IMG/VR virus record: IMGVR_UViG_3300033183_000103
Coordinates: 1-38,671 of that record
DNA: 38,671 bases
Direction: 5' to 3' (one strand)
Source: a virus
A program made the translations under genes and the position numbers. How positions within the stretch are numbered: the stretch's first letter is position 1; each line of letters begins with the position of its first letter. The notes beneath the pieces are model-generated. The model had not been told where the DNA came from. It was given only the letters and a program-made list of their open reading frames with translations, and ran no database searches. Below, in pieces: positions 19,198 through 30,233 of this stretch.

Positions 19198-19205
19198 GAT
19201 AAATA
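19198..19205 (+). promoter_or_regulatory. Late promoter GATAAATA for the 19229-22580 cassette
   Basis: GATAAATA begins five bases after the gp41 stop. Transcription from near 19211 leaves a leader of about 18 bases to the ATG at 19229. It separates the replication operon from a late cassette of five tightly packed genes. Confidence 0.7.
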
Positions 19206-19228: not shown

Positions 19229-19474
19229 ATGCAAAAGAAAACTAGAAGCATACTTGACGAATTAAATGACTTACACGTCTCAAAAGATAAAAAACATCTT
19301 ATGGAAAGCCGTGGAAGTAACATCATACAGAGTGCTATCAATTTATTTGAACAGATTGATTCTACGTATGACAGAGACCAAGCAGATGATCTTCAGCGTA
19401 AATTCATTAATGCTATCAAAGCTCGTGATCCACAGAAATTCTATAGATCAGTGAGACGCAAAGATGAAGATTAA
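19229..19474 (+). CDS. Small hypothetical protein, late cassette
   Basis: An 81-residue charged helical protein (LDELNDLHVSKDK, then ESRGSNIIQSAINLFEQID, ending in a basic-acidic SVRRKDED tail). It is the first gene after the late promoter at 19198 and overlaps the next by 11 bases. I do not recognise a family with confidence. Its size and helical content would suit an internal virion or assembly protein. No catalytic motif is visible. Confidence 0.6.
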   Translation: MQKKTRSILDELNDLHVSKDKKHLMESRGSNIIQSAINLFEQIDSTYDRDQADDLQRKFINAIKARDPQKFYRSVRRKDED

Positions 19475-19958
19475 TGAGCTACGTGAAGGCATATTTGATA
19501 GATCAACACAGTCCAGCATAGCAAACTTTGGTAAGGTTGCGGCCAAACAGTGGAACATCTACAAACAGAATCTACAGAGAAAGAATAATTTTGAAAAATT
19601 ATCTCCACAACAACTTCAAGGTCACTTAGAGAAGTTTGTTCAGGATAACATCTTAGTAAGATACGATGTTGGTCCTGAAGATCGGAATGAAGCAGAGATC
19701 ATAAAAGGTATGAAAGCCAAGATCTTAGCAACGGATGACATCGCTCAACAGAGTGCATCGTTTGCTACAATAGCACAACAGGCAAGTAAATTAGGATTAT
19801 CACCGGACCAACAAGGAAACTTACCAACTCCAAAAGACTGCAAAGTAACTTCAGCAAACAATAAAGTAACAGTGTGCGGTCAAGAAATTAATCCAACAAC
19901 TGATAAACAATTATACGATAAATTAAAAGACTTACTGGCTAAACAAGGACGAGCATAA
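19464..19958 (+). CDS. Hypothetical late protein
   Basis: A 164-residue protein with a Gln/Lys-rich helical N-terminus (KINELREGIFD start, common in marine phage proteins of this cassette type) and a C-terminal part with two Cys (DCKVTSANNKVTVCGQEI) that might form a small beta-hairpin. No domain recognised. It overlaps the upstream gene by 11 bases and the nucleotidyltransferase fusion by one base (TAATG), so it is likely made in step with that protein and may be a partner or substrate carrier for it. That is an inference from coupling only. Confidence 0.55.
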   Translation: MKINELREGIFDRSTQSSIANFGKVAAKQWNIYKQNLQRKNNFEKLSPQQLQGHLEKFVQDNILVRYDVGPEDRNEAEIIKGMKAKILATDDIAQQSASFATIAQQASKLGLSPDQQGNLPTPKDCKVTSANNKVTVCGQEINPTTDKQLYDKLKDLLAKQGRA

Positions 19959-21781
19959 TGGACTTGTTTGAAGGTGGTAACGTATTCAAAGACGCTGATG
20001 GGAATCCTCAAACACAGAGAATTAACAAACAAGACGTCCAACCAACTGTAAAGTATCTAGAAAAACTTACAGGACTTCCACTTCTACAGAATATGCTAGG
20101 CTCCACAGGCATAGCACAATCATCAGGTGACCTAGACCTAGCAGTTGATGTTAAGTCAGTAGCCAAACAAGATCTATATAACCAACTAGCACAGCACGTT
20201 CAAAAGCAAGGCCTAGAAGTTCGTGACTATGTTGCTAAGACTGGTGACTCAGTTCACTACAGAACACCTATCAACGGACAGGCATTAAATGGCTTTGTGC
20301 AGACAGACTTTATGTTTGGTGAGCCACAGTGGCAGAAGTGGGCATTGTCAGGTGCACCAGCAGGCTCAGAGTTCAAAGGCAAACACAGAGCAATAGTTCT
20401 AGCAAGTATAGCCCGTGCAAGAGGTATGAAGTTTTCAGTTAAGAATGGATTGTTGGCCAGAGAAACAGATAAACCTATTTCAAAAGATCCAGATGAGATA
20501 GCAAGGATACTAGTAGGCGGCACAGAACGAGATCTAGTGTCAGTTGAGTCAATAGTTAACAAACTTAAATCAGATCCAGACTACGAAAAATTAATAGCAG
20601 ATGCTAGAGAAACATTAGCCAAAGAAGGTCTTAACTTAGATGCTATGACTGAAACTAACATTATGCGTAACCTAAGAGATCGCATTGTTAATCAAGGTAT
20701 GAGTGTGATAGTCGAAGGTGCTCGTATTGAACATCCAGAAGATATGATATTTGACTATGGATCAAAAGGTGCTCTTTCAGCATTGACAAAACTACAACAA
20801 CTTCCTGATCAAGCCAAAGACATTACAATCAAATGGGACGGCAAGCCGGCAATCATATTTGGCCGTGATACAGACGGTAAGTTTGTGTTAACAGACAAGT
20901 CAGGCTTTACAGCAAAAGGTTATCAGGGCATGGCACGTTCACCTGCCGAACTAGAAAAGATTATGCAACAACGTGGTGGCGATAGAACAGAATTAGTTAA
21001 TGTCTACAAGTTTTTATGGCCAAAATTAGAAGCACAGACTCCTTCAAATATGAAAGGCTATGTTATGGGCGACTTATTGTATGTAGGCAAACCTAAAGAA
21101 GTCAACGGCAACTATACATTTACACCAAACACTGTTACATACTCAATTGACAAAGATTCAGATGTTGGACAAGACATAGGTCAATCATCAGCAGGTGTTG
21201 CTATACATACCTACAAACGAGATCAAGAGGACACAGGTGTTCCTTTCAGCGACATTGATCAACTTGGCAAAGGTGATGTCTTATTTGTAAGTCCTAAAAT
21301 GACTACCACAGTTGAACTAGACTTGCCCATAAAAGAACTTAGACAGATAGAACAAACAGTTAGAAAAAACAGTCAAAAGATTGATGCAATATTCAATCCT
21401 CAGACATTGAGAGAATATAAACTAGCAAACTTACCTGCATTAATGAAACAGTATGCTAACTTTAAAGTTAGAGAAGGCAACTTTGAGAATATGGCACAGG
21501 GCTTTATTGACTTTACGAAAACAAAAGTCAGTGAGCCTAAGCAACAGAGAATAGAACAAGTAGTATCAGACAATCAACAGGCAGTGACAGCAGTGTTTGC
21601 TATCTTTAGAATGATAGCCGCAATCAAAACACGTATGGTCCGAGAACTAGATAGAGAAGGCTCAGGTATCCGTGCTTCAATTGATGGCGAACCAGGACAC
21701 GAAGGTTACGTTGCTAGTGGCATTAAACTTGTTGATCGACTACGTTTCTCAAAATCAAACTTTGCAAAGAACTTACAATAA
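19958..21781 (+). CDS. Pol-beta-like nucleotidyltransferase fused to DUF6267-like/ligase-like domain
   Basis: A 607-residue two-domain protein. The N-terminal domain (about 30-170) shows the Pol-beta superfamily pattern: G48-S49 in MLGSTGIA, D58-x-D60 in GDLDLAV, and a third carboxylate D117 in VQTDFM. The second domain (about 250-600) resembles DUF6267 of marine myoviruses. It contains IKWDGKPAIIFG (K292, D294, G295), which looks like the KxDG adenylation motif of ligases and capping enzymes, then LTDKSGFTAKG, YVMGDLLY and GVAIHTYK, in the order expected for ligase motifs III, IIIa and IV. Activity is untested. Possible roles are RNA or DNA end repair or protein modification. It is late-expressed and TAATG-coupled on both sides. 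Confidence 0.6.
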   Translation: MDLFEGGNVFKDADGNPQTQRINKQDVQPTVKYLEKLTGLPLLQNMLGSTGIAQSSGDLDLAVDVKSVAKQDLYNQLAQHVQKQGLEVRDYVAKTGDSVHYRTPINGQALNGFVQTDFMFGEPQWQKWALSGAPAGSEFKGKHRAIVLASIARARGMKFSVKNGLLARETDKPISKDPDEIARILVGGTERDLVSVESIVNKLKSDPDYEKLIADARETLAKEGLNLDAMTETNIMRNLRDRIVNQGMSVIVEGARIEHPEDMIFDYGSKGALSALTKLQQLPDQAKDITIKWDGKPAIIFGRDTDGKFVLTDKSGFTAKGYQGMARSPAELEKIMQQRGGDRTELVNVYKFLWPKLEAQTPSNMKGYVMGDLLYVGKPKEVNGNYTFTPNTVTYSIDKDSDVGQDIGQSSAGVAIHTYKRDQEDTGVPFSDIDQLGKGDVLFVSPKMTTTVELDLPIKELRQIEQTVRKNSQKIDAIFNPQTLREYKLANLPALMKQYANFKVREGNFENMAQGFIDFTKTKVSEPKQQRIEQVVSDNQQAVTAVFAIFRMIAAIKTRMVRELDREGSGIRASIDGEPGHEGYVASGIKLVDRLRFSKSNFAKNLQ

Positions 21782-22332
21782 TGGAATTCTTACAGCAATT
21801 AGATGAATCAAGAATGTATCGTCGACTTAACCAGTTGACTGGTATGAAGATTGATGACATAGCAAAGACTATGTTTAATCATCTCCTCTTACTAAGAGCA
21901 TTGTATGATGTTGACAAAGCCAAAGCAATGAAGTATGCAGGTGAGATCGTCAGCAACTTAAACTTCAACGGATTCCGTCCTAGTATGCCTGACCTATACA
22001 ATATGATTGTCATGGTCATGGAACAAAAGAAATATGCTGACCGAGTGTTTAATAATTGGGACATTGTGTTACCTGAAATGCGTATCAAACGAGTATTTAG
22101 AGATATGGCTTCTGGCACATTAAACTCAAACGACTTTGCACAGTTAATGTTAATTCTACAACGTAGATTATCAGGGTTGGATGCAGATCAAATGAAAATG
22201 CGTAGAATGGTGCAACAACCTAAACTCACAGCCAGCGATCAAAATTGGATGAAGAAACGTTTGGTCCAAATGACTCGTAATTCAAGTGGTGCTAATTCAG
22301 ACCTGCACGAACTATATAGACAAGCAATCTAA
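21781..22332 (+). CDS. Hypothetical helical late protein
   Basis: A 183-residue, almost entirely helical, basic protein (MYRRLNQLTGMKIDDIAKTMFNHLLLLRAL near the start, LMLILQRRLSGLDADQMKMRRM later). No catalytic motif. TAATG junctions at both ends bind it to the nucleotidyltransferase fusion and to the next small gene. It might be an accessory subunit of the fusion protein, or a virion-internal protein. I recognise it only as a type found in uncultured marine myoviruses. Confidence 0.55.
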   Translation: MEFLQQLDESRMYRRLNQLTGMKIDDIAKTMFNHLLLLRALYDVDKAKAMKYAGEIVSNLNFNGFRPSMPDLYNMIVMVMEQKKYADRVFNNWDIVLPEMRIKRVFRDMASGTLNSNDFAQLMLILQRRLSGLDADQMKMRRMVQQPKLTASDQNWMKKRLVQMTRNSSGANSDLHELYRQAI

Positions 22333-28652: not shown

Positions 28653-30233
28653 ATGGCAATAACTCAAATATCACGAATACAACATAGACAAGGTCTAAAT
28701 GAAAATTTACCACAACTAGCAGGTGGCGAGTTTGGATGGTCATTAGACACACGTCAACTATATATTGGTAATGGCACAACAGCAAACGGTGCACCAGTTA
28801 TCGGTAACACTGAAGTTTTAACAGAGTTTTCAAACATTGTTGGACTTGCTGACACTTATACATATAAAGGTGATGATGCTGGATATGTTGTTAAAACAGG
28901 CGAATTAGTTTCAACACCAGTATCAAGATCACTACAAGATAAATTAGATGAAGTAGCAAGTGTTAAAGATTTTGGTGCAGTAGGCGACGGATCTACAGAT
29001 GATACTGATGCTATTAACCGTGCGTTGTATGAAATATTTTGTCGTGAAGTAAATTCTGAAGTAAGACGTAGTTTATATTTTCCAGCAGGAACATACGTTG
29101 TTACTGGCACACTGTTAATTCCACCTTATGCTAAACTGTTTGGTGAAGGCATGGACAGTTCTATTATTAAATTAGATAATGACCCTGCATCTACTATTCC
29201 AGATTATATTGCTAGAACAACGGACAGTCTACAACAAACTGGTTTAAACATTGGAACAAACTCAGCAGTGGCACCACAGCATGTTGAAATTAGTTCTTTA
29301 ACATTTGAAACAGCAGAAGAAACAGATTTATTCTTTGTTGAGTCATGCGAACAAATTCATTTTGATGCAGTAGGTTTTAAAGGACCACTAGGCACAACAG
29401 ATTTAACGTCAGCAACAGATGCATTAGCCTGTGTTAGAACATCAGGCACTGCAAGTAATATTCCTAAGAATGCTACATTTGATAAGTGTGCATTTGAAGG
29501 TATGACATATGGTTTTTACATCGATGATCGTTGCCAAGGTTGGACTGTATCAAACTCAAAATTTGAGACACTATATAACGGTATTGTGTTAGGTGTTTCA
29601 CCAGCAGACGGTGGTCCAATTGGCTTCCGTGCTGTTCATAACTTGTTTAATGATACATATGGTTCTGCTATTGTATATGATCAAGTTGGCAAATGTATTT
29701 CAGGATACAACATATTCTTAGACTGTGGTAATCAGTTCAATGGTGCAGGTTCACCAGCAACACCAGTTATTGATTTTAATTCAGACAACTGTGTATCAAT
29801 TGGTGATGTGTTTGAACGTGATGATACAGATGATTTATCATACCCTAGAGTTGACGTTGGCACTACAACAAGTATTGGCTTTTCAAACTCTAAAGATGTT
29901 AAATTAGGCAGTTTTGTCCGTGAGTCAGGTGACACGGCAACACTAACAGATAATACGTCATCTGCTACATCAGTGTTTACAATGGACAGTGGCGATGTAT
30001 CAGCATGGTCATTAGACTATACAATAACACGTGGTTCAAATGTTAGACATGGTAAGTTGACCGTGCGTAATGCGTCAACACCTGTTTACTCAGATGACTA
30101 CGCAGAGAACGCAGGAACAGGAGTCGTTCTATCAGTTGCTAATACAACCGGCACTACATACGCCCTACAGTATACAACTACTAGCACAGGAACAGACGCT
30201 ACATTAACATACAGCCTTACTCAGTTAGGTTAG
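28653..30233 (+). CDS. Tail fibre/spike with pectate-lyase fold
   Basis: A 526-residue tail protein. The first 50 residues (ISRIQHRQGLNENLPQLAGGEFGWSLD, LYIGNG) form a short domain found at the N-terminus of phage tail or receptor proteins. Residues about 90-110 link to VKDFGAVGDGSTDDTDAI (104-121), the hallmark start of a pectate-lyase-like parallel beta-helix, which runs on to about 410. The C-terminal 100 residues are Thr/Ser-rich, possibly a receptor-binding or trimerisation tip. Depolymerase activity is possible, but no catalytic residues can be identified by eye. It lies downstream of a late promoter and upstream of a conserved small gene. Confidence 0.8.
   Translation: MAITQISRIQHRQGLNENLPQLAGGEFGWSLDTRQLYIGNGTTANGAPVIGNTEVLTEFSNIVGLADTYTYKGDDAGYVVKTGELVSTPVSRSLQDKLDEVASVKDFGAVGDGSTDDTDAINRALYEIFCREVNSEVRRSLYFPAGTYVVTGTLLIPPYAKLFGEGMDSSIIKLDNDPASTIPDYIARTTDSLQQTGLNIGTNSAVAPQHVEISSLTFETAEETDLFFVESCEQIHFDAVGFKGPLGTTDLTSATDALACVRTSGTASNIPKNATFDKCAFEGMTYGFYIDDRCQGWTVSNSKFETLYNGIVLGVSPADGGPIGFRAVHNLFNDTYGSAIVYDQVGKCISGYNIFLDCGNQFNGAGSPATPVIDFNSDNCVSIGDVFERDDTDDLSYPRVDVGTTTSIGFSNSKDVKLGSFVRESGDTATLTDNTSSATSVFTMDSGDVSAWSLDYTITRGSNVRHGKLTVRNASTPVYSDDYAENAGTGVVLSVANTTGTTYALQYTTTSTGTDATLTYSLTQLG

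Follow-up and report, generated by a model that had tools for sequence, protein, structure and literature searches.

A single open frame on the plus strand (19958..21781, 607 residues) in the stretch of viral DNA analyzed (38,671 nucleotides, the window) encodes a protein in which a nucleotidyltransferase (NTase) half with a predicted fold like that of family-X DNA polymerases (PolX-like) is joined to a DUF6267 half that is predicted to be ligase-like. All features of this gene and of its operon given below lie on the same strand. The explanation that we tentatively favor is that the fusion protein would be a virion-packaged two-domain repair enzyme of a T4-like phage, made late and injected with the genome, where it would fill gaps and seal them. 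If true, a polymerase–ligase shipped with the phage DNA would allow breaks to be repaired ahead of all phage gene expression; injected proteins would gain a new class, and the enzyme would be a compact one for gap repair. Known folds are recognizable in each half. What appears to be new in the literature searched, where we found no mention of DUF6267, is that the two halves are fused, that the chain has a putative packaging signal, and that DUF6267 is read as a ligase.

The same-strand frame 19958–21781 encodes both sets of motifs as the original prediction had given them. The AlphaFold2 model of the fusion protein (61 sequences) has a mean pLDDT of 88, with residues 1–6 and most of 232–254 disordered. 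From the N terminus, the chain presents a predicted propeptide, MDLFE (residues 1–5, 19958..19972), disordered in the model and ending in a prohead-protease-like (L/I)-x-E|G site; a PolX-like palm and thumb (residues 6–197, 19973..20548); a linker (residues 224–256, 20627..20725), over most of which the model confidence is low; and the DUF6267 ligase-like adenylyltransferase domain (residues 257–607, 20726..21778). Structure prediction and structural comparison, which had been suggested as a check, were run for both halves and gave a PolX-like N-half and a ligase-like C-half, so that the claim of two distinct nucleotidyl-transfer folds within one chain is borne out at the level of predicted-structure matches. 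Sequence searches of the PDB with the fusion protein and with the profiles A3 and A4 returned no relevant match.

The N-half contains G48-S49, D58-x-D60 (catalytic carboxylates 1 and 2, 20129..20137), and D117 (the third carboxylate, 20306..20308), that is, the full Pol-beta acidic triad, present as first stated. The three aspartates are invariant in 21 aligned sequences, with identities down to 25–29% and including three jumbo-phage proteins. In the AlphaFold2 model, D58 and D60 open the strand 58–64 and D117 is within the strand 113–121, a predicted placement that is as expected for a Pol-beta palm; from the fold superposition and these strand positions, we infer that the three carboxylates would cluster. 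The best 50 PDB rows are all DNA polymerases mu, lambda, or beta, and, in VIA-align, residues 11–197 superpose on family-X DNA polymerases with a Z of 10.1 (162 residues, rmsd 3.4). For the helix-hairpin-helix fingers region, some PDB alignment rows begin at model residue 1 and most at 11–12. In Pfam, DNA_pol_B_thumb gives weak, sub-threshold matches in three members (best E 0.087), and the fusion protein passes none of the PolX models at their cut-off. Membership in RlaP was rejected, since PF10127 matches neither the fusion protein nor any window relative. Because no PolX or RlaP profile passed, the N-half is called PolX-like in fold and is not filed as a member. It shares with Pol beta, lambda, and mu the palm and thumb fold, the G-S, and the D-x-D...D triad; it differs from them by the absence of a Pfam polymerase match and of the 8-kDa domain, by the ligase-like domain that follows, and by its occurrence in a putative phage late protein.

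The original prediction placed the second half in a "DUF6267-like context"; DUF6267 is indeed present, but "context" is too weak a word, as residues 257–604 are Pfam DUF6267 itself (PF19782, E 8e-50, 170.7 bits vs. a cut-off of 27). It had also read K292-x-D-G followed by three motifs in ligase order, and this order holds: motif I K292-W-D294-G295 (20831..20842), a motif III-like D372 in G-D-L-L (21071..21073), and, together at 21701..21739, motif IV E582-G583-Y-V and a motif V-like K590-L-V-D-R594 are invariant in 61 sequences. Eight DUF6267 proteins that are very divergent also keep K292, D294, G295, D372, E582, G583, and K590 unchanged. By a very rough estimate, K-x-D-G occurs by chance in about one protein in five of such length; here it stands above chance because it is invariant at 23–32% identity. 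Motifs III and IV are separated by a mainly helical insertion (about residues 440–570, 21275..21667), much of which is gone in the ~295-residue cyanophage forms (Syn33, P-SSM2) with every motif kept.

Folded alone, the C-half reaches a pLDDT of 90 and a pTM of 0.85. Foldseek matches are weak (best E 0.036) and mostly to DNA and RNA ligases and capping enzymes, with 6wbo and 5d1o in the top rows. In VIA-align, nucleotidyltransferase-type ligases occupy 49 of the 50 best rows for residues 252–607 (Z 7.6 for Naegleria RNA ligase, 6.7 for T. brucei REL1, 6.4 for Trl1, 6.3 for T4 Rnl1 and Rnl2, and 5.8 for T4 DNA ligase), Z values of 7–8 being modest and of a size that also arises for models without clear relatives. 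The structure matches of the fusion protein in BFVD include phage RNA ligases; the Pfam profiles RNA_ligase and DNA_ligase_A_M do not match it. Although Z alone is unconvincing, a ligase fold becomes likely because the rows belong to one superfamily, the motifs come in ligase order, and viral RNA ligases are matched in BFVD. The modeled DUF6267 half thus likely combines the fold of lysine-adenylating ligases with their motifs I, III, IV, and V.

In this half, motif III has a D in place of E. The chain ends 17 residues past K590, in one helix, and therefore has no C-terminal OB domain; the OB domain with motif VI by which ATP-dependent DNA ligases are recognized is thus absent from the fusion protein, which fits RNA ligases better than DNA ligases. 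With the RNA ligases NgrRnl, REL1, and T4 Rnl1–Rnl2, the DUF6267 half has in common motifs I, III, IV, and V, the overall fold, and the absence of an OB domain after motif V; it differs from them by the D of motif III, by the absence of a Pfam ligase match, and, in the long forms, by the helical insertion of ~130 residues between III and IV. With ATP-dependent DNA ligases, the adenylyltransferase core is common. A polymerase and a ligase also occur in one chain in bacterial LigD, but the LigD polymerase is primase-type, whereas that of the fusion protein is PolX-like.

The N termini of the relatives consist of a few residues followed by Gly-Gly. Of 47 non-redundant sequences, 46 have E at position P1, before Gly-Gly, and 45 have L or I at P3, and P2 and P4 vary freely (entropy about 3 bits). 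This pattern corresponds to the specificity of the T4 prohead protease, (L/I)-x-E. That protease cleaves after Glu in a short motif, LTE in Alt (PMC5694885). Both an S77 protease and gp23, the capsid protein, are encoded by the sister genome G001. The (L/I)-x-E sites of this capsid protein number four, all of them within residues 1–43; the protein in the scaffold position, between the protease and capsid genes, has six such sites. At protein starts the motif is rare (5/132 G001 ORFs within the first 15 residues, with a crude gene caller). The neighbors of the fusion gene in the window's own clade share the motif; in more distant relatives, the downstream neighbor is a different protein without it.

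The NTase homolog of the Pseudomonas phage PA5oct is annotated in its record as a structural protein by ESI-MS/MS, and presence in the virion is known, from this annotation, for the PA5oct homolog only. In the Agrobacterium phage Atu_ph07, the NTase and ligase-like genes are CDS 65 and 66 and fall, by position alone, inside the cluster CDS 31–76, for which 29 virion proteins were reported by mass spectrometry (PMC6102473). Against the packaging reading, the NTases of Atu_ph07, of the Sinorhizobium phage Phosso, and of PA5oct begin directly at (G/S)G, without a cleavage site. The proposal that the protein is packaged thus becomes probable through the conserved cleavage site and the PA5oct homolog in virions, with detection limited to that homolog. 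The fusion protein would then share with the T4 internal head proteins (IPI–III, Alt) an N-terminal (L/I)-x-E tag, a late operon, and predicted injection; unlike them, it is a large two-domain enzyme with a shorter tag (5 residues vs. 10–20 in T4).

The fusion gene is the third of four genes in an operon (19229–22332). A T4-type late-promoter core, TAAATA (19200..19205), is found 29 nt before the first gene (19229..19474, 81 residues), which matches PHROG 11854, "virion structural protein" (E 1.4e-15), and has its own site, L-M-E|S. The second gene (19464..19958, 164 residues) begins with MKINELRE|G, which is capsid-tag-like. The downstream gene (21781..22332, 183 residues) begins with MEFLQQLDE|S and has a homolog directly 3′ of the NTase gene in Atu_ph07 and Phosso. 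In the window, TAAATA precedes 9 of the 49 ORF starts (1.2 expected), a number never equaled in 2000 shifts; the exact TATAAATA is not enriched, and it is the shorter core upstream of starts that is. The core lies ahead of the fusion operon at every one of the 59 distinct loci, and this conservation supports the late expression originally suggested for the gene; the primase and helicase genes are upstream of the core. The nine ORFs preceded by TAAATA (window 1767–37659) include a virion gene (24605) and a tailspike-like gene (28653). In the tailspike-like product of the latter (28653–30233), the N-terminal domain is Mtd_N, and there is also a pectate-lyase-like domain.

Four arrangements were found: the NTase without DUF6267, DUF6267 without the NTase, the NTase beside another ligase-like gene, and the fusion. 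The occurrence of all four is a usual sign of a functional partnership. In Atu_ph07 and Phosso, a separate NTase gene adjoins an RNA-ligase-like gene with K-L-D-G-S and E-G-V-V motifs (PF09414 E 0.002, sub-threshold), and the pair is followed by the homolog of the 183-residue protein. With hhalign, DUF6267 and these jumbo-phage ligases align at motif I only (probability 0.4%), and the two appear related, as far as shown, at the superfamily level only. The arrangement recalls RlaP and its RNA ligase (PF10127 with PF09414/PF09511), in which a Pol-beta-type NTase likewise adjoins a ligase, as the adjacent genes of the two jumbo phages do; the NTase here differs from RlaP by sequence, by the fusion in one chain, and by being apparently late and probably packaged. 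A scan of viral contigs with the Phosso NTase found none. Phosso itself (PV764938) contains, at 118347–119138, a second and diverged NTase copy, the neighbors of which are annotated as hypothetical. S-x-K stretches, which could be nuclease sites, are present in the gene upstream of DUF6267 in Melnitz (L003:6872-7957) and in the gene upstream of the NTase in PA5oct (L138:4644-5663). The two genes show no mutual similarity by phmmer, and the cyanophage gene upstream of DUF6267 received no Pfam assignment.

In the explanation that we favor, the fusion protein would be expressed from the late operon, beside a virion protein gene, would enter the prohead, would there be cut after E5 with exposure of Gly-Gly, and would exit the head with the DNA on injection. 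With less certainty, domain 1 would add missing nucleotides at a gap or a 3′ end and domain 2 would seal the break through K292-AMP, the preferred targets being the gaps and nicks that packaging, irradiation, oxidation, or host nucleases would leave in the incoming genome. The original interpretation stands as regards the two folds, the late timing, the probable packaging, and the repair of nucleic acid, which is the most likely role. The resemblance of domain 1 to family-X DNA polymerases with a thumb, and the place of its homolog next to a separate ligase-like gene in two jumbo phages, make the picture more specific than that interpretation had it; its other suggestion, the modification of a packaged protein, is supported by nothing that we found.

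The nature of the substrate is the least certain part. DNA is favored over RNA because a PolX and a ligase would be self-sufficient on DNA ends and because the relatives searched contain no RNA-end-healing enzyme: neither a PNKP-type phosphatase nor T4 Rnl1 was found in the window relatives, most of whose records are fragments, so that these absences are weak. The higher scores of RNA ligases over DNA ligases for the C-half (Z 7.6 vs. 5.8) count against DNA. It is possible, if less probable, that the packaged enzyme repairs RNA, with the NTase restoring to tRNAs the nucleotides lost to host anticodon nucleases and the ligase resealing them, as a counter-defense at injection. A C-half closest to RNA ligases, with no OB domain after motif V, and the PF09414-like gene that accompanies the NTase in two jumbo phages agree with such a role. 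RlaP, an RNA-ligase-associated Pol-beta family of jumbo phages, was proposed for the same role (PMC7824862), and T4 internal proteins have been described as a defense versus host attack enzymes (PMC3012670). On the other side, the NTase is PolX-like and not RlaP, the PNKP phosphatase was not found in relatives known mostly from fragments, and neither the window, where Rfam and tRNA scans were empty, nor G001 contains a tRNA.

Another explanation, which we regard as unlikely, is a nucleotidyl transfer, by AMPylation or in a capping-like manner, to a protein or a small molecule, which would, for example, disarm a host factor after injection. Both folds are also known in enzymes that act on non-nucleic-acid targets or caps, and the Atu_ph07 genes adjoin a run of transferase-like genes; both points count for this explanation, but the pairing of PolX-like and ligase domains, by fusion here and by neighborhood elsewhere, points to nucleic-acid ends. 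The Atu_ph07 run (L139:7579-12465, beside the NTase/ligase pair) is made of similar genes, most starting with M(R/K)W(H/D)QL(T/I)E. Their products resemble ADP-ribosyltransferase-type proteins, with one weak GNAT match, and the run is possibly a bank of injected effectors; for two of these transferase-like genes, Pfam gave no confident assignment.

The enzyme might also be confined to replication and repair in the infected cell, with the N-terminal motif a coincidence. The fusion gene does come after the primase and helicase genes, and the standalone cyanophage DUF6267 is in the replication region and without the motif in the forms examined. This is nevertheless improbable in view of the operon's own late-promoter core at all 59 loci, the virion gene at its head, the strict conservation of P1 and P3, and the mass-spectrometric detection of the PA5oct homolog. 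That the protein is catalytically idle and plays a structural part inside the head, in line with an operon shared with a structural protein, is very improbable, given that both active sites are invariant across distant relatives.

Standalone DUF6267 proteins are found in 468 records of phages; cyanophages account for about 450 of these, and in several the gene adjoins the gp43-uvsX-gp41 region. The domain and motifs in cyanomyoviruses are the same as in the C-half of the fusion protein; the cyanomyovirus proteins differ in that they stand alone or, in S-PM2, are joined to a cytidylyltransferase, and the Kyanoviridae cyanophage forms examined have no packaging site. Cyanomyoviruses are without T4 gene 30 (PMC2984593), and most phages of the cyanomyovirus subgroup are without any known DNA ligase (PMC7824862). 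In S-WAM1, P-TIM40, P-SSM2, Melnitz, and one 187-kb cyanophage-type contig, DUF6267 is present and the PF01068 ligase is absent; four window relatives encode both DUF6267 and an ordinary PF01068 DNA ligase. In the cyanomyovirus and Melnitz loci inspected (L001, L002, L003, L260, L261), the standalone DUF6267 is usually in the replication gene region, with no recognized DNA ligase. The lack of a recognized ligase in cyanomyoviruses makes DUF6267 a candidate for that function, which is not proof, and the missing OB domain calls for caution. The broader idea is speculative and on balance doubtful: DUF6267 would be an unrecognized ligase family. By itself it would supply the DNA ligase that is missing from T4-like cyanophages, and, joined to a PolX-like polymerase, it would have become a head-packaged and injected break-repair enzyme that fills gaps and seals them within one chain. 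If the reading is right, DUF6267, as a concrete candidate found in about 450 cyanophage records, makes the old question of the missing ligase testable.

In S-PM2 (L263:5995-7770), DUF6267 is fused C-terminally to a HIGH-type cytidylyltransferase-like domain, and, in many other cyanophages, DUF6267 and a cytidylyltransferase-like gene are neighbors. DUF6267 therefore pairs with two unrelated nucleotidyltransferases.
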